Shown piece by piece: positions 5,131 to 15,848 of a stretch of DNA of 23,113 bases (the first letter of the stretch is position 1; every line of letters begins with the position of its first letter). A program made the translations under genes and the position numbers. Source of the DNA: a virus; IMG/VR virus record IMGVR_UViG_3300010354_000691, positions 1 through 23,113 of that record. One strand, written 5' to 3'. The notes below the pieces were generated by a model that did no database searches, was not told the DNA's origin, and saw only the letters and a list, made by a program, of their open reading frames with translations.

Positions 5131-5182
5131 CACCGGGAGAGACCCGTAATACTTCTTCTCCCCTTTACGGGTCCGGTGTTTT
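5131..5182 (+). terminator. Hairpin terminator at end of the late operon
   Basis: CACCGG (5131-5136) pairs with CCGGTG (5173-5178) and ACCCGTAA (5142-5149) pairs with TTACGGGT (5165-5172). Five bases bulge on the 5' side, the loop is about 15 bases, and TTTT follows at 5179-5182. An alternative inner pairing GGGAGA/TCTCCC also exists. It overlaps the stop codon of the convergent minus-strand nuclease gene. On the minus strand no T-run follows the stem, so it is best read as a plus-strand terminator. Confidence 0.65.
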
Positions 5183-5899
5183 AACGGTGGTCTGCTCAGG
5201 TGACGGACCACCGTCTTTTTGAAACTGCTCTACCCGTTGCATCCACTGGTCTTGGTACTGCTGGAACTCTCGGCCACAGGTCACAAACTCCTGTACTTCC
5301 CCATCCTGCGCCACCATCAAGATCACGCCGTGATCGATCTCTGTACCGTGGACCGTGTTATGCGCCAAGGCATAGGCGGCTAACTGTAAGAAGTAGTCCT
5401 CTACCCACTCCCGCTTCTTCATCCTATTGGCTTGCTTGAAGTCGAGGATGGACGGCTTGCCGTTGTATACCGCTACGCAGTCCGTGGTCCCCGCATACTT
5501 CCCGGGGTAGTACACAGGCACTTCCGAACCCCAGACCTCTTGGACGTTCGGGAAAAAGTGCTCTATTAGCGCATAGCCCATGCGGTAACCCTTGACCTGT
5601 AGCCACGTGCGCGGAGGATCAAGCGCCCTGTTCAACAATAGTCTTTCAACGACACCATGCATGTGGGTGCCTACGGTGGCCGCATCGTTGCGGATTCGTT
5701 CGGCGTTCTCCTTGCCTACCCGCTCTTCCCACTCCTTCAGGAAGGTCTGGTCCTTGGTGCCGGACAGGATGGTGGTGACGCTAGGCATCGGGTCCTGCCC
5801 CTCCAAGACATAACGGCGGCCGTTATCCCCGTCCACCCGAACGAGCTTCTCGTACTTGTACTTCTTCCGAATAGGTATGAGTTGCATTAGATCAGCCAT
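5165..5899 (-). CDS. PD-(D/E)XK nuclease, RecB/Cas4-like
   Basis: 244 residues with the ordered motifs of the RecB-type nuclease family: H79/H81 in GTHMHG, E126 in GSEVPVY, D140 in GTTDCV, the D153-x-K155 core in ILDFKQA, and the QxxxY motif Q172-Y176 in QLAAYA. These residues are expected to bind metal and cut DNA, most likely as an exonuclease acting in phage recombination or in degradation of host DNA. The start codon overlaps the end of the SNF2-type helicase gene by 13 bases, so the two are co-translated and may act together at DNA ends. Family membership is well supported. The precise substrate and polarity are not visible. Confidence 0.88.
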   Translation of the reverse strand: MADLMQLIPIRKKYKYEKLVRVDGDNGRRYVLEGQDPMPSVTTILSGTKDQTFLKEWEERVGKENAERIRNDAATVGTHMHGVVERLLLNRALDPPRTWLQVKGYRMGYALIEHFFPNVQEVWGSEVPVYYPGKYAGTTDCVAVYNGKPSILDFKQANRMKKREWVEDYFLQLAAYALAHNTVHGTEIDHGVILMVAQDGEVQEFVTCGREFQQYQDQWMQRVEQFQKDGGPSPEQTTVKTPDP

Positions 5900-7338
5900 C
5901 CTTTCAGTTGTTCGCCTAGCACTGCCGAGGCAATGTCGATCTTGTTTCTTAGTGCTTTGACAATGTGCTCATCCACCGTCTTGGTGGCGATCAGGTCGAT
6001 GTAGGTGACCTTCTCAGTCTGACCGATACGGTGAGCGCGATCCTCGGATTGCAACCGCTTCTCTAGGTCAAAGCTATTGCTGTAGTACACCACGGTGTGC
6101 GAGGAGACCAGCGTCAGGCCGTAGCCGCCCGTTGTTGGATTGCCAACAAAGAAGCGTAACTCACTTTTTGGGTCAGAGAACTCCTCAACAATCTTCTGCC
6201 GATCTTCCGTCTTGGTATCGCCGTAGTACGTGGCCACCGAGGTCATGCCGTATTCCTTCTGGATCGCCAGCTTGATGTCCTCAATGTTCTTGCGGTAATT
6301 GGCCCAGATAATGACTTTGCCGCTGGACTCTGCCAGTAAGTCCATCAACTCCGGCAGTCTATTGTTCGGAAGGGCTATCTCTTGCCCATCGTCTAACTTG
6401 ACGTAGCCACAAACGATCTGATGCAATCTTAACAACTGTGTCAGAGCGTTCGTTGTACTGACCAAGCCTTCGCTCAGAACAGACAGCGCCATCAGCTTCA
6501 TCTGCTCATACGCCTTCTTCTGCTCATCCGTTAGCTCTACGTCCCGGCGCAGGTAAATCTTGTCCGGCAGGTCAAGGCATTCGTCTTTGGTAACGCGAAA
6601 CGCGAACCTGTCCAACTTGTCCTTTAACTCGTCCAAGTGTCGGTAGCCGACTACCTGCTTAAAGGTGTGGGTCGGCATCTTGCGCTCTACAAGGACCGCA
6701 TACCGTGCTTGGAACGTATAAAAGCTGGTGTGGTTCAGGCATTCCTCGCCCAAAAAGTCGCATTGAGAGTACAAATCCAATGGGCTTTTGGTCACAGGAG
6801 AGCCTGTAGCGATCCTCCGGAACACCGCCTCTTTGCCTATCTTGACGATGGCCTTCGTGCGCTTGGCTGTGTGGTTCTTGATGGTAGTGGATTCATCAAT
6901 CGCCATGAAGGATTCGGTGATGCGCAGGAACATCTTGGCGAACTGCTGACCCTTCTCCGTGCTGAACGCCTCGACGTTCATGATCAAGATGCGCATGTCA
7001 TCGACGGAGGCCAACATGTTCTCCATCTCCTCCTTTTCCGCCTTCCTCGGCGAAGCATTCCAACACGCCATCTTGTAGGAGATGTGCTCCGGCATATGCT
7101 TGGGGATTTCAGAGCTGTACCAATTTCGGTACACCCCTTTGGGCGCGACGATCAGCATGGCGTTGATCTCGCCCTTGTCGTACAGCATGGCGGCATTATT
7201 GATGAGCATGAAGCTCTTGCCTGTCCCCATCTCGGCGAACAGGGCCACCTGAGCGTGTTTGTAGAAACGCTGCAAGTAAGCGGCTTGATGTAAGAACGGC
7301 TTGTTCTTAAACGGGTATTTGTCTACGAAGTAGTCCAT
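5887..7338 (-). CDS. SNF2-type superfamily 2 helicase/ATPase
   Basis: 483 residues covering both RecA-like lobes. Walker A is AEMGTGKS (35-42, Lys41), motif Ia lies near IVAPKGVYRNW, motif II is DES at 148-150, motif III is ATGSP at 177-181. In lobe 2 the GGYGLTL stretch (404-410) and the motif VI region EDRAHRIGQ (432-440, Arg434 and Arg437) are typical of SNF2-like enzymes. It should use ATP to move along double-stranded DNA or remodel forks and recombination intermediates. The start is supported by AAAGGAAG a few bases upstream. It is the first gene of a leftward two-gene unit with the nuclease. No extra accessory domains are present. Confidence 0.92.
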   Translation of the reverse strand: MDYFVDKYPFKNKPFLHQAAYLQRFYKHAQVALFAEMGTGKSFMLINNAAMLYDKGEINAMLIVAPKGVYRNWYSSEIPKHMPEHISYKMACWNASPRKAEKEEMENMLASVDDMRILIMNVEAFSTEKGQQFAKMFLRITESFMAIDESTTIKNHTAKRTKAIVKIGKEAVFRRIATGSPVTKSPLDLYSQCDFLGEECLNHTSFYTFQARYAVLVERKMPTHTFKQVVGYRHLDELKDKLDRFAFRVTKDECLDLPDKIYLRRDVELTDEQKKAYEQMKLMALSVLSEGLVSTTNALTQLLRLHQIVCGYVKLDDGQEIALPNNRLPELMDLLAESSGKVIIWANYRKNIEDIKLAIQKEYGMTSVATYYGDTKTEDRQKIVEEFSDPKSELRFFVGNPTTGGYGLTLVSSHTVVYYSNSFDLEKRLQSEDRAHRIGQTEKVTYIDLIATKTVDEHIVKALRNKIDIASAVLGEQLKGWLI

Positions 7339-7423: not shown

Positions 7424-7753
7424 GTGAGTCGAGTCTTCGTCGTCCAAGAGATGCCTACGCATAACATCTCTCCCGCTATGCAGTTTGGGGAGATTGTTGT
7501 TCTGCTGCCGCATAACACTCAGATCGCCTTTTCCACTGTTCCCGTTGTCAGGAAGCTGCGCCGGAAGCTAATGGATTTCAACGATTCTGATTATCTTTTG
7601 TTAACGGGAGACCCTGTGGCTATCGGATTAGCGTGCGCCATAGCTTCTTTCAATAACGGGGGCCGCTACACTGCCCTAAAATGGGACCGCCGGGAGTTCT
7701 TGTATATCCCGGTTCGTATCGATGTAACCGAGAATGGAGAGAGTGATGAGTAA
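7424..7753 (+). CDS. Conserved-looking small phage protein, unknown function
   Basis: 109 residues, GTG start preceded by AAAGGAG at the proper distance; it is the first gene of the replication operon. The protein begins MSRVFVVQE, has a hydrophobic stretch EIVVLLP, a basic helix with RKLRRK, and a segment GDPVAIGLACAIA followed by NGGRYTALKWDRR. No catalytic motif and no clear membrane segment. I recall similar short proteins encoded near helicase genes in other phages, but I know of no function for them. The overlap with the next start implies coupled translation. Confidence 0.75.
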   Translation: MSRVFVVQEMPTHNISPAMQFGEIVVLLPHNTQIAFSTVPVVRKLRRKLMDFNDSDYLLLTGDPVAIGLACAIASFNNGGRYTALKWDRREFLYIPVRIDVTENGESDE

Positions 7754-8300
7754 CATTAATAGCCTGTTTGAGCAGGATGCTGGTGCACTTCAAGTCAAGA
7801 ACCAAGACTTGGATAGTGTGGGTGCTTTGGCGCGCCGTGCCAAGCTTCTCGAGAAAGAAATCGAAGAGTTTGAGACGGTAATCAAAGAGCGGAAAGAACA
7901 GCAGCGCAAGTTGCTGGAAGAAACAATCCCTGCCATGCTTGAGGAACTCGGCATGAAGTCCTTCAAGATGGCCGATGGCAGCACCATCGAAGTCAAACCG
8001 TTTTACTCTGCAAGCATCAAAGAGGAAAACCGCGCAGTTGCTTATCAATGGCTGCGTGACAATGGCTACGATGACATCATCAAAAACACTGTCTCAGTAC
8101 GGTTTGGTCGCAACGAGGACAAACTGTGCGAGAGCCTAATCAACCTTCTGCGTGAGCAAAACTACCCTGTTGAGCAAACGGAGAAGATTGAACCTCAAAC
8201 GCTAAAAGCTTGGGCTAAAGATATGGTCCAGCGTGGCGTTGAGATACCGTCGGAAACCTTTGGCCTGTACGTTGGGTCCAAGGCAACTATCAAATCGTAA
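7746..8300 (+). CDS. Coiled-coil protein with Gam/Gp157-like layout
   Basis: The ATG at 7746 is chosen because GGAGAG lies just upstream; an in-frame ATG at 7734 lacks such spacing. The gene overlaps the preceding stop. Of 184 residues, about 26-68 form a highly charged coiled coil, followed by a short beta-rich part (FKMADGSTIEVKP, residues 73-85) and a helical part. A coiled coil followed by a small beta segment is the layout of Mu Gam and siphovirus Gp157-type proteins, which bind DNA ends or block host RecBCD. The similarity is of architecture only. Position next to the SSB-like gene fits a DNA-binding replication or recombination role. Confidence 0.75.
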   Translation: MSNINSLFEQDAGALQVKNQDLDSVGALARRAKLLEKEIEEFETVIKERKEQQRKLLEETIPAMLEELGMKSFKMADGSTIEVKPFYSASIKEENRAVAYQWLRDNGYDDIIKNTVSVRFGRNEDKLCESLINLLREQNYPVEQTEKIEPQTLKAWAKDMVQRGVEIPSETFGLYVGSKATIKS

Positions 8301-8322
8301 GACGAACCAAGGAGCGTGAATC

Positions 8323-9090
8323 ATGGCTAAGACTGAACTAGCAGAAAAGAAGCAATACGCAGTATCCACCGCTGTTTCATTTGAAGAGGATGCAGCACAA
8401 GGCGGTTTTGAAAACATGGGGCAGGAAGATCGTGCACTACCCTTCTTGCGACTACTAACCAACACAAGCCCCGAGGTTGGTGAAGTAGATGGTGCGATGC
8501 CGGGGATGATCTACAACACAGTAACAGGGCAGTTATACGATGGAAAGAAAGGGATTACAGTTATCCCCTGTGCGTATGTCAGGCAATACATCGAATGGGC
8601 ACCGCGCGGCCAAGGCTCGGGCGCACCAGTTGCTATCTATCCCGCAACGAGCGATATCCTTAGCAGAACGCACCGGGAACCCGGCGATAGTAAAGATTAT
8701 CTCGACAACGGTAACTACATTGAAAACACCGCCAATCACTTTGTGATGGTGGTGAATGAGGAAGGTTTCCCCGAACCTGCCTTGATCACAATGAAGTCAA
8801 CGCAGTTGAAGAAGTCACGCAAGTGGAACAGCATGATGCTGTCTACAAAGCTGATTGGCAAGAACGGTCCTTACACGCCGCCAATGTTCTCCCACCTGTA
8901 TCGTTTGACTACGCAAGCCGAGTCGAATGACAAGGGCAAGTGGTTTGGCTGGGAAGTGGAAAAGATTGGTCCAATCGAAGATGCTGACATGTACATTGCA
9001 GCGAAGCAGTTTGCTGCAACCGTCACCTCAGGCGAAGCGAAAGTAAAACACGCTTCGGAAGACGCGATGGATACCGCAACGCCGTTCTAA
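8323..9090 (+). CDS. Putative single-stranded DNA-binding protein
   Basis: 255 residues, start supported by AAGGAG eight bases upstream. The N-terminal half contains ENMGQEDRALPFLRLL (30-45), a segment I associate with a phage protein family found in replication modules. The middle is beta-rich. The tail is acidic and ends DAMDTATPF, like the acidic, aromatic/proline-tipped C-termini of bacterial SSB and T7 gp2.5 that recruit partner proteins. The gene sits between a Gam-like protein and a primase. The SSB role is inferred from tail and context, not from a recognised OB-fold signature; an unrelated replication accessory protein is possible. Confidence 0.7.
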   Translation: MAKTELAEKKQYAVSTAVSFEEDAAQGGFENMGQEDRALPFLRLLTNTSPEVGEVDGAMPGMIYNTVTGQLYDGKKGITVIPCAYVRQYIEWAPRGQGSGAPVAIYPATSDILSRTHREPGDSKDYLDNGNYIENTANHFVMVVNEEGFPEPALITMKSTQLKKSRKWNSMMLSTKLIGKNGPYTPPMFSHLYRLTTQAESNDKGKWFGWEVEKIGPIEDADMYIAAKQFAATVTSGEAKVKHASEDAMDTATPF

Positions 9091-9114: not shown

Positions 9115-9192
9115 GTGTGCGCCGCGCCGGTAACTAACTGGATGCAATGCGGCACAGACGCAGCGAGTACCCCACCTTTTCCTGAGAATTGA
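9115..9192 (+). CDS. Candidate 25-aa ORF after the SSB-like gene
   Basis: After the SSB-like stop (9088-9090) the same frame remains open for 33 codons to TGA at 9190-9192, five bases before the first ATG of the primase gene. A GTG at 9115 with GGGGGAAAG upstream could start a 25-residue peptide with two Cys and a PPFPEN end. It could also be a readthrough extension, or simply non-coding. A competing ATG at 9110 gives only seven codons. Low confidence. Confidence 0.2.
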   Translation: MCAAPVTNWMQCGTDAASTPPFPEN

Positions 9193-9194
9193 GA

Positions 9195-10727
9195 ATGATC
9201 GATATAACAAAATTCAAGGCGATCTTCAGTGGACTCGACATCGCCTACGGCACATACATAATCAAGGCGGAGCGGGGAGATGGCAAACAGGCGGGACAGG
9301 CTACGGTTGTACGTAAACCTCCAACGGATGACCTTTGGGAACGTCATCTTGCTGGTATTGATCCTTCCCTTGGCATTATCCCTATTCGTGCTGATAACTC
9401 TTGCATATGGGGCTGCATCGACATTGACCAGTATCCAATTGATCACAAAGGATTGGTACAGAAGATTGCGGCACTAAAGCTCCCACTGGTTGTCTGCCGT
9501 AGTAAATCTGGCGGCGCACACTGCTTCCTATTCGTTCGTGAGCCGATTCCGGCGCGCGATATGCAAGACTATCTAAAAGCCTGTGCTGCGCTGTTGGGCG
9601 AAGCAGGGCGCGAGATATTCCCTAAGCAAGCTGAAATCCTCGTGGACCGGGGAGACACCGGCAACTTCCTCAATCTTCCTTACTTCGGGGGAGACAATGG
9701 CACACGCTATGCATTTAATGCTGACGGCTCGTCAGCTACGCTTGAAGAGTTTTTTGCTCTTTACGAAGCAAACGCCCAAACCGCACCGCTTGTCATACCA
9801 GAGCCGCCGAAAGTGGCAGAGGCTCCGATCAAAGACGGTCCGCCGTGCCTTCAGGCTCTCTGTTCACAGGGCTTCCCTGAAGGAACGCGCAACAATGGGC
9901 TCTTTAACATCGGCATTTACCTTAAAAAGCTTGCGCCTTCGAGTTGGGAAGATAAGATCGTTGAGCACAACCTAAAGTACTTTGGCCCACCACTACCGAA
10001 TAATGAGGTGCAACTTGTCATCAAACAACTTCAGAAAAAAGAGTACCGATATAAGTGCAAAGACGCGCCGCTCAATAGTTTCTGTAACAGCAGTCTATGC
10101 CGGACTCGCCGCTTTGGGATTGGCGGCCATGGACCCGACTCGCCCACTCTTTCCTCGCTATCTAAATATGCGTCTGAACCGCCTCTGTGGTTTTTGGACA
10201 TCAATGGTAGGCGCATTGAATTGGAAACGGATAGCCTCTTCAACCAAGCAGCGTTCCAGAAGAGTTGCTTGGAGAAGCTTAACATCCTTCCCCCTTCGCT
10301 CAAAAAAAACGATTGGGAGAATATGCTCAACGCCCTCCTCAAGGAGATGGTCGAAACAGAACAAATTTCAGAAGCATCTGAAGATACTTCGGTTACTGGC
10401 CGCTTCTTAGACCTGCTCGAGGAATTCACCACGCACATCCAGCAAGCAATGGACCGTGATGAAATCTTGATGGGCCGTGCATGGATTGAACCAGAAGATG
10501 GCAAGTGCTACTTCCGAATGAAAGACTTGGAAGCACATCTTACGCGCAACAACTTTAAAGGCATGACCGCACCAAAGATGGCACAGCGTATGCGTGACCT
10601 CGGCGGTGAACCAATCAGCTTATTCTTGAAGGGCCGTACCGTGCGCTGCTGGCGTTTGCCACAGTTCACTAAGCAAGACTCGCCATTTACAACGGAGACA
10701 GTGCGACAGCAGGGGAGCCCGTTCTGA
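9195..10727 (+). CDS. DNA primase-polymerase, AEP superfamily (TOTE-type), with Cys cluster
   Basis: Read from ATG 9195 (a TTG at 9189 is also in frame) this is a 510-residue protein. Catalytic acidic pair CIDID (D76, D78), then the nucleotide-binding SGGAH motif (105-109) and a third acidic site in LVDRGD (D151) match archaeo-eukaryotic primases, closest by eye to the primase domain of TOTE conflict systems. Downstream, C218 in PPCL plus C288-x8-C297-x4-C302 form a four-Cys set recalling the Fe-S/zinc domain of large primase subunits. A C-terminal helical part follows. It should make primers and perhaps short DNA for the family A polymerase two genes later. The TGATG overlap couples it to the next gene. 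The metal ligand assignment is inference. Confidence 0.85.
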   Translation: MIDITKFKAIFSGLDIAYGTYIIKAERGDGKQAGQATVVRKPPTDDLWERHLAGIDPSLGIIPIRADNSCIWGCIDIDQYPIDHKGLVQKIAALKLPLVVCRSKSGGAHCFLFVREPIPARDMQDYLKACAALLGEAGREIFPKQAEILVDRGDTGNFLNLPYFGGDNGTRYAFNADGSSATLEEFFALYEANAQTAPLVIPEPPKVAEAPIKDGPPCLQALCSQGFPEGTRNNGLFNIGIYLKKLAPSSWEDKIVEHNLKYFGPPLPNNEVQLVIKQLQKKEYRYKCKDAPLNSFCNSSLCRTRRFGIGGHGPDSPTLSSLSKYASEPPLWFLDINGRRIELETDSLFNQAAFQKSCLEKLNILPPSLKKNDWENMLNALLKEMVETEQISEASEDTSVTGRFLDLLEEFTTHIQQAMDRDEILMGRAWIEPEDGKCYFRMKDLEAHLTRNNFKGMTAPKMAQRMRDLGGEPISLFLKGRTVRCWRLPQFTKQDSPFTTETVRQQGSPF

Positions 10728-12490
10728 TGCGTAAGATGCCAAAGGTGCCCAAGGTGCCCAAGGTGCCTACGTTATCCTCGCTGAAGCCGAGAAAGCATGT
10801 GATCAAAGCTGCTCCACGCAAGAAGATTACGGTAACAAAAGCACTATCTCCGGTTAAAGAAACCGTGGTTGTGGATAAGCTTGTTCATCTTGAGCATGTT
10901 GAAGACAACATCATTAACAGCGGACGTGCAGGACTTACTTACACCATGCTGTTATTGAAGGAGTTGCATAAACTCCTTGTCAATCCGCTTGAAACGAAGC
11001 TACCCATCACTGAGAAGTATGACGGCAGCCCAAGTGTAGTGTTTGGTCGTGATCCTCAAACCACAAAGTTCTTCGTAGCAACAAAAGCATTCTTCAGTAA
11101 GACACCGAAGATAAACTTTTCAGAAGAGGATATTCAGGAGAACCACGGCTACTCCGAGAATTTGGTACGCAAGTTAACCGCCGCCTTCCGCCATCTGCCT
11201 AAGGTCATTCCTGTCACGGGGGTGTTCCAAGGTGACCTCATGTACACCGCAGATACCGTGGGCGAAGATGCTTCATTCACCGCGAACACCGTTACCTACT
11301 CTTGTAATCAATCTTTTGTTGCTGACACTGTAAGGAAGTCAAAGCTCGGTATCGTTGTTCACACCGAGTACATCGGCAATGATCTCCGGCGGATGTCTCG
11401 CTCTAAGTCAGGACAGTCTCCGCTGTACTACTTCAGAGAATCAAAAGACGTTTTCCTAATTCCTGCGAAGGTTGGTCTTCATGAGGTCTACTATCCAACA
11501 GAGAAGCAGCAGGAAGTCCTGTCACTGCTAAACACTGTGCACTTGTCTACGAGCCCGAACATCTTTACCGATTCGCGCTACGAAGTAATCAAGGACTACA
11601 AAGTAAAGCTCAAGCCCTACATAAACAAAACGATCAGGGAAGGTACGTCACCTTTTGCTCAAGACTTCGCGCAATACATAAACGAGCCGTTAAGAGAAGA
11701 GACGCTGACCATCCTTAGTGATTTGTTCTACGTGCACACGAAGCTTCAGCAGGTAAAAGACATCCTTCACGAGTGCTTGTATCGCTCTAACACCTATCGC
11801 CCATTCCATACCTCTATCAATGGCGTACAGACAAAGGGCGAAGGGTTTGTCGTATCGTTCAACGATCACCTAATGAAGATTGTTGATCGACAGGAGTTCA
11901 GCCGACAAAACTTCCTGCGACAACGCGCTATAGGTAAAGACGCAAAGACCACCGTCTTCGCTTTTGCTCGAATGAATCCGCCGCATAAAGGTCACGGCTT
12001 ACTGATCTACACTGTGAAAGATATCGCCGCGAAGTTTGGCGCTGATCATCTAATCGCGGTAACGGCAACGCATGACAGCAGCAACCCATTGCCTCCAGCA
12101 GAAAAGCTTGCTTTTTTGAATGAGTTCTTCCCCAATACAAACTTCTCACTGTGCGAATCGCATTTCGTTCATGAGCTACGTAAACTCTATCAATCAGGTA
12201 CTCGGCACTTAATCTTGGTGGCCGGGAGCGATAGAGTAGATATGTACGAAGACACACTGAATGATATGAATGGCAAAGATGAGTTCTTCTACTTTCCTCG
12301 CTTCGAAGTCGTATCGGCTGGATCGCGGCGCGCGGATGCAACAGATATCCGAGGTATGTCCGGGACAAAGATGCGCGAGTATGCACGTCTTAGTGACTTC
12401 CATCTCTTCTCGCATTGCGCACCTGTTGATGACAACCCTGCGCTAATTAGAAAGCTGTTTGAAGCTGTTCAACAGGGGCCACAGCTATGA
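10727..12490 (+). CDS. Fusion: KxDG ligase-type nucleotidyltransferase plus HxGH nucleotidylyltransferase
   Basis: 587 residues. After a basic, proline-rich head there is a helical region (about 50-90), then EKYDG (96-100; Lys97 as candidate adenylated lysine) as in motif I of DNA/RNA ligases, FQGD (167-170) as a motif III candidate, EGFVV (372-376) as motif IV and MKIVD (383-387) as motif V. The C-terminal domain starts near 408 with FARMNPPHKGH (413-423), the HxGH signature of NMN/cytidylyl/pantetheine-phosphate transferases, and ends with MSGTKMR (544-550), the ISSTxxR-like motif. Related large-phage proteins with a ligase-like N-terminus and nucleotidylyltransferase C-terminus exist but are, to my knowledge, uncharacterised. 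The substrate is unknown; NAD metabolism or RNA end repair are guesses. Overlaps neighbours by TGATG and ATGA. Confidence 0.85.
   Translation: MRKMPKVPKVPKVPTLSSLKPRKHVIKAAPRKKITVTKALSPVKETVVVDKLVHLEHVEDNIINSGRAGLTYTMLLLKELHKLLVNPLETKLPITEKYDGSPSVVFGRDPQTTKFFVATKAFFSKTPKINFSEEDIQENHGYSENLVRKLTAAFRHLPKVIPVTGVFQGDLMYTADTVGEDASFTANTVTYSCNQSFVADTVRKSKLGIVVHTEYIGNDLRRMSRSKSGQSPLYYFRESKDVFLIPAKVGLHEVYYPTEKQQEVLSLLNTVHLSTSPNIFTDSRYEVIKDYKVKLKPYINKTIREGTSPFAQDFAQYINEPLREETLTILSDLFYVHTKLQQVKDILHECLYRSNTYRPFHTSINGVQTKGEGFVVSFNDHLMKIVDRQEFSRQNFLRQRAIGKDAKTTVFAFARMNPPHKGHGLLIYTVKDIAAKFGADHLIAVTATHDSSNPLPPAEKLAFLNEFFPNTNFSLCESHFVHELRKLYQSGTRHLILVAGSDRVDMYEDTLNDMNGKDEFFYFPRFEVVSAGSRRADATDIRGMSGTKMREYARLSDFHLFSHCAPVDDNPALIRKLFEAVQQGPQL
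10742..10768 (+). repeat. Three tandem 9-base repeats at the start of the fusion gene
   Basis: AAGGTGCCC, AAGGTGCCC, AAGGTGCCT in direct succession encode KVPKVPKVP within the disordered N-terminus of the fusion enzyme. Such an in-frame repeat is prone to slippage and may vary in copy number between related phages. Confidence 0.85.
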
Positions 12491-13986
12491 CAGCCGTGCG
12501 CAAAGTCTTCGGACCTCCCGGCTCAGGGAAGACTACGTACTTGCTGAACCAAGTCGAGACCGAGTTAAAGGACGGTGTATCCCCAATGCGCATCGGTTAC
12601 TTCTCGTTCACAAGGAAAGCAGCTAACGAAGCGCGCGACAGGGCCATCACCAAGTTCCCGCACCTAAATGCGAAGACCGACTTCCCCTACTTCAGAACAC
12701 TGCATAGCCTCGCCTTCTACTGTCTTGGCGTGAAGAGTGATGACATCATGCAGCCCGAACACTATCAAGAGTTCGCAGAGCAAGCAGGGATTCAAGTCAT
12801 GCTCAATTCAGATGAGGACGGCATTGCCAAAGCCGACAATCCAATTTTGAACGAAATCAACCTCGCTCGGATTCGCGGCGTTGACCTACGCAAGCACTAC
12901 AACCAATCCAGAATCGACATCGAGTGGCATCACTTCGAGTTCGTTGAGCGCACGTATCGCCATTACAAAGCCTCACGCAACCTGCTCGATTTCACTGACC
13001 TACTAGAACTCGTTTGCTTGCAGCCGCACCGATTACCAAAGCTTGAAGTACTTATCATTGATGAAGCACAGGACCTTTCTCGCCTACAGTGGAACTTGGT
13101 GCGCGAACTAGTATCCCGTTCTAATCGTGTGTTCGTCGCCGGTGACGATGACCAAGCTGTCTTTACGTGGGCCGGAGCAGACGTTAAATCATTCTTAGAG
13201 TTTGATGGCGATATCCATGTCTTACAACAATCCTACCGAATCCCCTCGTCCGTTCACGACATTGCAAATCGGGTTGTCGGAAGAATCCGGGAGCGCCAAG
13301 ATAAAACTTGGTTCCCACGTGACTACATTGGCACCGTTAGACAGTATGGTCGTTTCGAAGACGTTCCATTTGATGACGGAGAATGGCTTGTCCTCGCTAG
13401 TACAAACTACCTGCTCAATCCAGTGCATGAGTGGCTCAAAGGGAATGGAGTACTCTTTGAACGTAACCACATCCCTAGTGTCGCGCCCAATATCCTCAAA
13501 GCGGTAATCGATTGGGAGCGGCTGCGCAAAGGACTGACACTCAGTATCACAGAGGTCCAAAACCTCTACAAATACCTTGGCCCGAAAGACGTGGCCCGAG
13601 GCCACCGGAACTTCAAAGGCACCGTCGATGCCATTGAGTACGATTTATCCACCCTTAGTAAAGACTACGGTCTTTTGACCGATGCCGTCTGGCATGAGGC
13701 GCTAACCAAGGTCAGTGAAGACAAGCGGGAATACCTGCGCGCCATCCTGCGGAGGGGCTACAAGATATCGAATTTCGGCCGCTTCAAGCTCTCCACCATC
13801 CATGGTGCCAAGGGCGGTGAAGCTGACAATGTCGTCGTATTAATGGACCTCTCCCCCAAGTTTGCCAAGGAATACTCCATCGATTCAGACAGCGTGAACC
13901 GGCTCCTGTATGTGGCCATTACAAGAACCAAGAAAACCCTGCATTTAGTGATGCCCAAACAATACGACAAAGGATTTCGCCTGTGA
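12487..13986 (+). CDS. UvrD/Rep-like superfamily 1 DNA helicase
   Basis: 499 residues with a full SF1A motif set: Walker A GPPGSGKTT (9-17), motif Ia near YFSFTRKAANEA (38-49), Walker B IDEAQD (191-196), motif III GDDDQAVFTWAGA (219-231), motif IV QQSYR (247-251), motif V STIHGAKGGEADNVVV (436-451) and motif VI YVAITRTK (475-482). It is shorter than UvrD/Rep (about 670-720 residues), so the accessory 1B/2B insertions are reduced, as in phage Dda-type enzymes. A 3'-5' polarity is normal for UvrD relatives, but Dda runs 5'-3', so polarity is not settled. It is coupled to both neighbours (ATGA at its start, GTGA at its end), fitting a role unwinding template for the polymerase. Confidence 0.93.
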   Translation: MTAVRKVFGPPGSGKTTYLLNQVETELKDGVSPMRIGYFSFTRKAANEARDRAITKFPHLNAKTDFPYFRTLHSLAFYCLGVKSDDIMQPEHYQEFAEQAGIQVMLNSDEDGIAKADNPILNEINLARIRGVDLRKHYNQSRIDIEWHHFEFVERTYRHYKASRNLLDFTDLLELVCLQPHRLPKLEVLIIDEAQDLSRLQWNLVRELVSRSNRVFVAGDDDQAVFTWAGADVKSFLEFDGDIHVLQQSYRIPSSVHDIANRVVGRIRERQDKTWFPRDYIGTVRQYGRFEDVPFDDGEWLVLASTNYLLNPVHEWLKGNGVLFERNHIPSVAPNILKAVIDWERLRKGLTLSITEVQNLYKYLGPKDVARGHRNFKGTVDAIEYDLSTLSKDYGLLTDAVWHEALTKVSEDKREYLRAILRRGYKISNFGRFKLSTIHGAKGGEADNVVVLMDLSPKFAKEYSIDSDSVNRLLYVAITRTKKTLHLVMPKQYDKGFRL

Positions 13987-15848
13987 AAAGCCTCCCACTG
14001 TTCCCCGTCAAGTCCGATTGGGTAGCGCCTGAGACCTTCCCAAACCTCTCCGAGGCCAAGGAAATCGCCATCGACTTGGAGACCTGTGACCCGAACATGG
14101 AAACCATGGGCCCCGGATGGCCACGCAATGACGGCTTCATTGTCGGCTACGCTGTGGCCGTGGACGGTTGGTCAGGTTATTACCCTATTGCCCATGCCGG
14201 AGGCGGAAATCTCGATAAAAAGCGTGTGGAGCGGTGGATCGCGGACGTTCTTGCCACCCCTGCTGACAAGATTATGCATAACGCAGCCTATGACTGTGGA
14301 TGGCTACAGGCCGCAGGATTCAAGATCAACGGCCGCATTCTGGACACGATGATCGCCGCGCCCCTGATCGACGAAAACCGCTTTTCCTACTCGCTTAATG
14401 CCCTTGGATTCGACTATCTCAAAGAGGTAAAGAGCGAAGCAGGGTTGAAAGAAGCCGCCGGGGACTTCGGTGTGCACCCCAAAAAGGGCCTGTGGAAGCT
14501 TCCGGCTATGTACGTGGGCGAGTACGCTGAACAGGACGCTGCGCTCACGCTGAAGCTCTGGCAAGCCTTCAAGATCAAACTGCGTCAGGAAGATGTTGAA
14601 TCCATCTTTGACCTCGAAACGAGGCTTCTTCCTGTCCTTTTATCGATAACTTCCAAGGGCGTTCGCTTTGACCGGGACCGCTGTGAGAAGACTATTGAAG
14701 ACCTTGTCAAACGAGAGCGCGCGCTGGTAGCTCAAATAAAGAGCCTGTCCGGCATCGGCGTAGATATCTGGGCCGCCGCCTCTGTGGCTAAAGCATTCGA
14801 CAAACTTGGGATAAGTTACCCCAGATCAGCATCTGGAGTACCTAGCTTTACGAAGTCCTACTTGGAAGAATGTCCCCACGACATCGGCAAGCTCATCATT
14901 GAGGCCCGGGAGACCAACAAAACCCACAGTACGTTTTTACAGCCCTATCTGGACTTCTCCGCCAAGACAGGGCGCATTCATCCGCACATCAACCAGCTCC
15001 GCTCCGACGAAGGCGGCACGGTCTCCGGCCGTCTCTCCATGGCTAACCCGAACCTCCAACAGGTCCCTGCCCGACACGAGACCATCGGACCGCTGGTGCG
15101 CTCCCTCTTCCTGCCAGAAGAAGGCGAACTGTGGGCCTCTAATGACTTCTCCTCCCAAGAGCCGCGCCTGTTGGTGCACTACGCCTCGCTATTGGACCTG
15201 CCGGGGTCAGAACTCATGGTTGATGCCTACCGCAACAACCCTGATACCGACTTCCACCAGATGGTGGCAGACATGGCTGGGATTAAACGCAAGGCCGCCA
15301 AGACCATCGGTCTAGGCCTCATGTACGGCATGGGCGTAGCCAAGCTTGCCACTCAGCTCGATCTCACCCACGAGGAAGCCAAGGAATTGATCGACACCTT
15401 TCACAAGAAGGTGCCCTTCCTAAAAGGCACGGTAAACTCTGTGATGCGCCGTATCGACAATCCTGCGGCCAATGGCGCGATCCGCACCCTCTTGGGCCGA
15501 AAGTGCCGCTTCCCCCTGTGGGAGCCAATGCAGTACGGGGTCAACAAGGCCATGCCTTACGAACAGGCACTGGTGGAATATGGACCGAGGATCAAGCGCG
15601 CAGGAACCTACAAAGGCCTAAACCGCCTCATCCAAGGATCAGCCGCAGATCAAACCAAGAGAGCAATGGTTGCACTACATGAGGCCGGAGAAAACCTCCT
15701 CCTGCAAGTGCACGACGAACTGGTGATCAGTGTGAAAGACCGCGCTCAAGCCGAACGCGCCGCCGAGATCATGGCTAACTGTGTTGGGATGGAAATCCCC
15801 AGCCGTGTGGATGTCGAGGTTGGACCTAGCTGGGGTGAAGCGAAGTAA
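13983..15848 (+). CDS. polA: DNA polymerase I (family A) with 3'-5' exonuclease
   Basis: GTG start overlapping the helicase stop, with AAAGGA upstream; 621 residues, a phage-size enzyme lacking the 5'-3' nuclease domain. Proofreading motifs: Exo I IDLET (D31, E33), Exo II NAAYD (100-104, D104), Exo III YAEQD (181-185, D185). Polymerase motif A is NDFSSQEPR (387-395; catalytic D388, with the usual SQIE reading SSQE-P), motif B is RKAAKTIGLGLMYG (436-449), motif C is QVHDE (575-579, D578). The position matching E. coli Phe762 is Leu444. In viral surveys a Leu here has been linked with slower, more temperate-like replication than Phe or Tyr. It is the last gene of the replication operon and its stop abuts the convergent minus-strand genes. 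Confidence 0.96.
   Translation: MKSLPLFPVKSDWVAPETFPNLSEAKEIAIDLETCDPNMETMGPGWPRNDGFIVGYAVAVDGWSGYYPIAHAGGGNLDKKRVERWIADVLATPADKIMHNAAYDCGWLQAAGFKINGRILDTMIAAPLIDENRFSYSLNALGFDYLKEVKSEAGLKEAAGDFGVHPKKGLWKLPAMYVGEYAEQDAALTLKLWQAFKIKLRQEDVESIFDLETRLLPVLLSITSKGVRFDRDRCEKTIEDLVKRERALVAQIKSLSGIGVDIWAAASVAKAFDKLGISYPRSASGVPSFTKSYLEECPHDIGKLIIEARETNKTHSTFLQPYLDFSAKTGRIHPHINQLRSDEGGTVSGRLSMANPNLQQVPARHETIGPLVRSLFLPEEGELWASNDFSSQEPRLLVHYASLLDLPGSELMVDAYRNNPDTDFHQMVADMAGIKRKAAKTIGLGLMYGMGVAKLATQLDLTHEEAKELIDTFHKKVPFLKGTVNSVMRRIDNPAANGAIRTLLGRKCRFPLWEPMQYGVNKAMPYEQALVEYGPRIKRAGTYKGLNRLIQGSAADQTKRAMVALHEAGENLLLQVHDELVISVKDRAQAERAAEIMANCVGMEIPSRVDVEVGPSWGEAK

Follow-up and report, generated by a model that had tools for sequence, protein, structure and literature searches.

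Phage RNA ligase 1 (PF09511, T4 gp63) and the nucleotidyltransferases of the HIGH superfamily are the described enzymes nearest to the two halves of a protein encoded by the viral record IMGVR_UViG_3300010354_000691, a fragment of 23,113 bases that is referred to here, over its full length, as the window. In this protein, a DUF6267 domain, from a Pfam family of unknown function, is joined to a HIGH adenylyltransferase domain. RNA ligase 1 and DUF6267 share a KxDG motif followed by F-x-x-[ST]-[KR], an EGYV...K arrangement of motifs IV and V and nearly equal motif spacing. However, DUF6267 has about 100 extra residues, largely helical, inserted ahead of motif IV, after IIIa, a conserved HxxHxED N-terminus and the fusion to the HIGH domain, and the profile match between the two is non-significant. 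LigA, the DNA ligase dependent on nicotinamide adenine dinucleotide (NAD+), likewise belongs to the KxDG adenylation superfamily, but DUF6267 is devoid of its Ia, OB, HhH and BRCT domains, and the LigA adenylation domain family PF01653 has no match in the window fusion. With regard to the other half, its fold and its HxGH and S-x-x-x-x-R motifs are those of the HIGH enzymes nicotinamide mononucleotide (NMN) adenylyltransferase, phosphopantetheine adenylyltransferase (PPAT) and FAD synthetase, yet the window domain stays under every curated family cut-off and is fused to a ligase-like domain.

The pair as a whole resembles T4-GC 71 (DUF6267) and T4-GC 190 ('cytitidyltransferase') of the T4-like marine cyanophages, which have the same domains in the same order in adjacent, often overlapping genes, and whose homologue is a single open reading frame (ORF) in the S-PM2 record LN828717. 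In contrast to the window fusion, these are mostly separate genes without a basic leader, at about 30% identity, and no assigned function was found for them. The Pnkp/Rnl RNA repair systems with RlaP Pol-beta nucleotidyltransferases (PMC7824862) are comparable in that relatives of the window protein co-encode a predicted kinase, a nucleotide-adding nucleotidyltransferase and a predicted ligase; here, however, DUF6267 would be the ligase and the HIGH nucleotidyltransferase is the constant partner, with no phosphatase or RtcB seen. No study of the DUF6267–adenylyltransferase pair was found in the literature, and the same fusion has already been deposited in databases without a named function, for instance in phage S-PM2. 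This agrees with the original prediction, made from the sequence of the window, that such fusions in large marine phages appear unstudied; the 'large marine phage' part is not shown for the window phage, as the record is a 23-kb fragment.

We see an even chance that the window protein is a two-enzyme protein for nucleic-acid end repair (sealing), carried as optional cargo. Since the pair co-occurs across many ocean phages, most of them without a known ligase, it is probably an overlooked kit that mends cut nucleic acids.

Ligase-like features of the DUF6267 half

The original prediction saw a ligase-type KxDG domain and an HxGH nucleotidylyltransferase in a single protein. Indeed, one intact ORF of 587 residues joins two nucleotidyl-transfer domains, with matches far beyond chance, and its KYDG, EGFVV, MKIVD, HxGH and SGTKMR motifs lie where they had been placed. 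Over residues 53-399, the Pfam DUF6267 model scores 253 bits (cut-off 27), and the only other Pfam match listed for the protein is a sub-threshold one to ATP-sulfurylase.

DUF6267 likely belongs to the covalent nucleotidyltransferase (ligase/capping) superfamily, given its ordered invariant motifs and the enrichment of such enzymes among its weak fold matches. In 104 homologues, the invariant residues include K97, D99, G100 and P102 (KxDGxP, the KxDG of motif I being kept in 104/104), F116 and K120 (FFVxTK), Q168 and D170 (QGD), N187, H212, Y215, N300, K344, E372-G373 (EG[FY]V) and K384. The motif residues are also invariant in the aligned fused relatives, down to 42% identity, and their order is I, III, IIIa, IV, V, as in covalent nucleotidyltransferases. 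In the AlphaFold2 model built from the 104-homologue alignment (predicted local distance difference test score, pLDDT, 93.6; predicted template modelling score 0.90), K97 comes after a strand, and two adjacent strands (E330-334 and E337-341) bear motifs IV and V. A PDB sequence search with the fusion protein gave zero matches. When the model was compared with the PDB using Foldseek, the top three matches were the Pyrococcus furiosus DNA ligase (PfuLig) and two entries of T4 RNA ligase 2, and at least 11 of the 50 listed matches were ligases or capping enzymes, including LIG4, LigA, REL1, Pnkp1/Rnl and the mRNA capping enzyme. The matches of the predicted fold thus appear strongly enriched for a class that is small in the PDB. 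Against a viral library, the DUF6267 family itself came first, followed by polynucleotide kinase/ligase and RNA ligase 2 proteins.

The HIGH adenylyltransferase half

The C-terminal half is clearly a HIGH-superfamily nucleotidyltransferase, with the fold and the (H/T)xGH and S-x-x-x-x-R motifs both present. In the full-length model this domain matches NadD, PPAT and FAD synthetase with a Foldseek probability of 1.00. Structure prediction, which had been proposed for each half separately, is firm for the C-terminal HIGH fold, while the N-terminal half gives a high-scoring model with individually weak ligase matches. Across relatives the motifs read GR/ARxNPPxxGH, NPL...K, GSDR and S(G/A/S)(T/S)(K/R)xR, and the catalytic pattern is compatible with NMN adenylyltransferase (NadM/NadR).

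Residues 398-582 match PHROG cytidyltransferase families (1.9e-42). In a PDB profile search, the UPF0348 protein MJ0951, NadR and the archaeal NMN adenylyltransferase MJ0541 were among the nearest, all weakly. No NMN adenylyltransferase model is among the curated-family matches listed for the window fusion, and relatives score below the curated cut-offs (17.7 bits against 341 for NadR, 12.9 against 181 for the archaeal enzyme). With weak profile matches and missed family cut-offs, 'cytidyltransferase' can be taken as a label only; the plain 'cytidylyltransferase' name was dropped as uninformative, the fold matches being adenylyltransferases.

Pairing of the two domains

The pairing of DUF6267 with the adenylyltransferase is real, and the pair is a widespread module. 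Among 66 DUF6267 genes recovered by a DUF6267-only query, each followed by 4 kb or more of sequence, the adenylyltransferase lies downstream on the same strand for 49 and upstream for none. On the DUF6267 tree, parsimony gives six switches between separate and fused states, the fused clades being that of the window (support 1.0), L017/L028/L096, L030, L056, S-PM2 and L044, the last with the domains in reverse order. This frequent adjacency and the six inferred changes strengthen the earlier suggestion of a two-step pathway.

Some variants stand apart. In LN828717 the S-PM2 fusion reads as one ORF, whereas AJ630128 splits it; four single-base gaps set the two sequences apart here (L005 compared with L009). 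In L084 (1707-3698), what is joined to DUF6267 is not the adenylyltransferase but an unidentified C-terminal stretch of about 250 residues. Very long multidomain versions that resemble polyvalent injected proteins are found in L046 (5531-8671) and L070 (4208-7600); these long variants include an adenylyltransferase with RimK ATP-grasp and Zn-protease-like domains, and a PAP2 phosphatase joined to Pol-beta and HIGH domains.

Partner enzymes, ligase content and a possible mechanism

Further domains accompany the pair in its relatives. In 11 loci the adenylyltransferase begins with a Pol-beta nucleotidyltransferase domain (GS...DADLDIN). Other relatives have a zeta/AAA_33-type P-loop kinase, whose matches include PHROG polynucleotide kinase, either encoded between the members of the pair or as part of the adenylyltransferase protein. 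RlaP-family Pol-beta enzymes are found alongside RNA ligases in large phages, where their predicted task is to put back lost nucleotides (PMC7824862), and the Pol-beta and kinase partners thus lend support to a role in nucleic-acid end repair. Four ligase families (PF01068, PF09414, PF01653 and PF09511) were searched for in 12 phage genomes, namely ten with DUF6267 together with T4 and RaK2. None of the four was found in nine of the ten DUF6267 genomes, whereas T4 and RaK2, both without DUF6267, have two or three of them. The original prediction had offered NAD-like or other adenylated compounds and RNA end modification as options; between them, the partners and the lack of known ligases tip the balance towards nucleic-acid end repair.

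In the proposed mechanism, DUF6267 would be a very divergent covalent lysine-nucleotidyltransferase, with a motif layout nearest to phage RNA ligase 1. K97 would be charged with a nucleotide, most likely AMP, which would then be handed to a 5'-phosphate so that the end can be joined. The HIGH half would serve this reaction by making or regenerating the nucleotide cofactor or by adenylylating a partner substrate. In relatives, the two enzymes may work with the zeta/polynucleotide kinase-like kinase and the Pol-beta enzyme, linking kinase action, nucleotide addition and sealing. We infer the ligase activity, RNA or DNA as its substrate and the role of the HIGH domain. The chemistry originally proposed is probably right, but the prediction had missed that the ligase-type domain belongs to DUF6267, that the pair occurs widely and that the gene is optional in the window's lineage; the Pol-beta and kinase partners, the ligase-poor genomes, the capsid-type leaders and the cargo status are new here.

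If DUF6267 is a ligase, it would fill a gap, as the T4 DNA ligase can be missing from T4-like marine phages. It would also be a new ligase branch, which would assign roles to a Pfam DUF and to the gene that hundreds of phage genomes list as no more than 'cytidyltransferase', and the pair would be a repair kit, apparently present in the virions of some phages.

Points against end repair and alternative explanations

Several observations weigh against end repair. The Foldseek matches of DUF6267 in the PDB are individually weak, none being significant (best E 0.09, probability 0.69), and a PDB profile search with the 104 sequences returned coiled or low-complexity chance matches only. Comparison with hhalign was not significant against single ligases and 300 background ORFs, where the best local match coincides with motifs IV-V, and no ligase family was significant in a second comparison with family alignments, controls and reversed decoys (among 45, LigA ranked 2, Rnl2 3 and Rnl1 8, all non-significantly). 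Rnl1 alone aligns in a sensible register, over motif I and the next strand, at a non-significant E of 0.13 that is not counted as proof; an Rnl1 query scan of viral contigs recovered only itself, and PF09511 gave no significant profile match for the window fusion. Motif III, which reads QGD, and motif V, with a single lysine, are both variants. DUF6267 ends with a helix no more than about 15 residues past motif V and no OB fold follows, so that it is not a standard DNA ligase; this absence is one of its odd features, along with the N-terminal HxxHxED and the invariant N and K of the helical insertion. Furthermore, DLP_6 carries an ATP-dependent DNA ligase in addition to DUF6267, the Pol-beta and kinase partners are found in relatives and not in the window, and some relatives adjoin sugar-nucleotide genes.

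DUF6267 might instead do the job of the DNA ligase gp30 in T4-like cyanophages and pelagiphages, with the HIGH domain in support. The nine DUF6267 genomes without a DNA ligase family and the position of most DUF6267 loci in replication regions with uvsX/gp41 speak for such a replacement, as does the status of gp30 as a quasicore gene, since many quasicore genes are missing from one or more marine cyanophages (PMC2993671). Nevertheless, we regard it as fairly unlikely: most members of the window's lineage with primase and UvrD do without the gene, the OB domain is absent, the host ligase could serve and DLP_6 carries both genes. A ligase that recharges itself with NAD+ is another, unlikely, explanation. 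In it, DUF6267 would adenylylate itself at K97 with NAD+, and the HIGH domain, as an NMN adenylyltransferase, would use ATP to turn the NMN thus freed back into NAD+. The closest HIGH motifs are NadM/NadR-like (GRxxPxxxGH, and NPL compared with ENPF), 1f9a and 1lw7 are among the best PDB profile matches, NadR/NadM models match relatives weakly, L079 matches the PHROG nicotinamide-nucleotide adenylyltransferase (2e-5), and a fusion would hold NMN locally. Conversely, every NMN adenylyltransferase match is far under the curated cut-offs, PF01653 is absent from all 12 phage genomes, and PPAT and FAD synthetase match the HIGH fold equally. In an extended form of this idea, improbable as a whole, one bound cofactor would allow repeated sealing even after host defences have destroyed the NAD+ of the cell, and leader-bearing relatives would deliver the pair with the virion, ready ahead of phage gene expression.

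NAD+ salvage against NAD-depleting defences, of the NadV-NadM type and with DUF6267 as an accessory, would also suit an NMN adenylyltransferase-like HIGH domain, and phage NadM has been described as strictly NadV-coupled (PMC9503650). However, the NadV-type nicotinamide phosphoribosyltransferase (PF04095) is present only in DLP_6 and RaK2 of the 12 genomes, which argues against salvage in the others; the invariant ligase motifs would moreover be left unexplained, making this a very improbable reading. It also seems quite unlikely that the HIGH domain makes nucleoside diphosphate (NDP)-activated compounds which DUF6267 uses, in a sugar-nucleotide or other small-molecule pathway, for example for virion or host-surface glycans. 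Iyer et al. place some cyanophage HIGH nucleotidyltransferases in NDP-sugar synthesis (PMC7824862), a DegT aminotransferase and an NAD-dependent epimerase lie immediately upstream of DUF6267 in L003 (2121-4405), with similar genes in L002, and an epimerase-like family recurs in 10 loci. This pathway gives the ligase motifs no role, however, most loci are replication regions, and the window has no such genes.

An optional gene between primase and helicase

The fusion gene had been placed within a replication operon. It does lie between the primase and UvrD helicase genes, but as optional cargo and not as a fixed part of the operon. Among 106 distinct loci of the window's lineage, defined by a window-type primase and UvrD helicase, the fusion stands between the two in 12 and is missing from 94. 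In L220 (primase 95% and UvrD 87% identical), the site is clean and empty, with the same TGATG junction now joining primase and UvrD. Compared with L001, the window is 96-98% identical in primase, UvrD and family A polymerase and 71% in the fusion, where the proportion of nonsynonymous differences (pN) is 0.19 against 0.015-0.023 in the neighbours, about tenfold; synonymous divergence is also raised. With a ratio of pN to its synonymous counterpart of about 0.24 in the same comparison, the fusion gene is under purifying selection. These figures fit an exchangeable or fast-evolving accessory gene in the window's lineage, and its optional presence and raised divergence are as expected of an accessory gene in host conflict. 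The enzyme pair would thus probably serve against host defence. A PADLOC search for known defence genes gave no match. The gain and loss of the pair in this operon offer a natural comparison with and without it.

In L229 (1082-2994), of the same lineage, two overlapping frames take the place of the single fused one. The slot between primase and UvrD holds small unrelated ORFs of about 75-100 residues in L239-L251 and others, and therefore looks like a general site for accessory genes.

Capsid-targeting leaders in relatives

Many relatives begin with a T4-type capsid-targeting leader, searched for as an N-terminal M-x-[ST]-[FY]-x-x-[FY]-[IL]-x-E, which resembles that of the T4 internal proteins IPII and IPIII (MKTYQEFIAEA). 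It heads 64 of 121 DUF6267 and 23 of 69 adenylyltransferase ORFs, while the remaining ORFs have it in 43 of 843 cases on the same strand and in 0 of 639 on the opposite strand; as the ORFs are related, the P values for this enrichment overstate the evidence. Several leaderless cyanophage homologues start near the expected N-terminus of the cleaved protein. In S-CREM2, the adenylyltransferase gp154, a family member (E=2e-56), has the leader and was found in virions with three peptides, as was gp156 with six (PMC10665884); the authors of that study caution that contamination is possible, and the DUF6267 protein was not detected. The gp156 protein, annotated as hypothetical (L140, 9013-9726), has a match to the Pol-beta nucleotidyltransferase family PF01909 just above the cut-off.

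The window fusion lacks this leader. Its own is basic, proline-rich and predicted to be disordered, with 14 K/R and 7 P within the first 50 residues; capsid targeting is thus unsupported for the window protein, and packaging is not claimed for it.

Features of the window and neighbouring genes

The coordinates of the fusion gene, its motifs and the adjoining genes are collected in Table 1.

Table 1. Fusion gene, domains, motifs and flanking genes in the window.
Feature	Position	Strand	Support or remark
AEP/TOTE-type primase, upstream	9189..10727	+	PHROG primase 6.9e-95; overlaps fusion start (TGATG)
Fused ORF, 587 residues: basic leader, DUF6267 (ligase-like), HIGH adenylyltransferase	10727..12490	+	Uninterrupted reading frame
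Leader, residues 1-48, basic, Pro-rich, predicted disordered	10727..10870	+	Similar basic leaders in fused relatives
DUF6267 domain, residues 53-399	10883..11923	+	Pfam E=5.8e-75; AlphaFold2 pLDDT 93.6
Motif I, K97-Y-D-G100, putative Lys-nucleotide site	11015..11026	+	Invariant in 104 sequences and fused relatives
FFVATK, residues 115-120; position equivalent to FIASRGSF of RNA ligase 1 homologues	11069..11086	+	
Q168-G-D170, motif III-like, beta strand	11228..11236	+	Q and D invariant; G >90%
H212-T-E-Y215, motif IIIa-like, beta strand	11360..11371	+	Alignment and model
Helical insertion, residues 258-354, between motifs IIIa and IV	11498..11788	+	Invariant N300 and K344
Motif IV, E372-G-F-V-V	11840..11854	+	E and G invariant
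Motif V, M383-K384-I-V-D	11873..11887	+	K384 invariant
HIGH-superfamily adenylyltransferase domain, residues 405-587	11939..12487	+	PHROG 1.9e-42; Foldseek NadD/PPAT/FAD synthetase probability 1.00
P-H420-K-G-H423 (HxGH) motif	11981..11995	+	G422 and H423 invariant
N453-P-L motif	12083..12091	+	Common to archaeal NMN adenylyltransferase (ENPF)
G500-S-D-R503 motif	12224..12235	+	
S545-G-T-K-M-R550, second HIGH-family motif	12359..12376	+	S545 and R550 invariant
UvrD-type helicase, downstream	12487..13986	+	Overlaps fusion end (ATGA)
Family A DNA polymerase	13983..15848	+	

Among the relatives, T4-GC_533 (PHROG 1462; L006, 4495-5991) is a conserved neighbour of unknown function upstream of the cyanophage DUF6267. 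Its reading as a PD-(D/E)XK nuclease, made by eye from 'NPADIW...SLKK' alone, was rejected, as Pfam gives no support. In the window itself, the stretches at 5165-7338 (-) and 7734-9090 (+) encode an SNF2-type helicase and a weak PD-(D/E)XK exonuclease match (minus strand), as well as proteins like gp33 and gp34 of cyanophage Pam3, whose replication module that of the window thus resembles.

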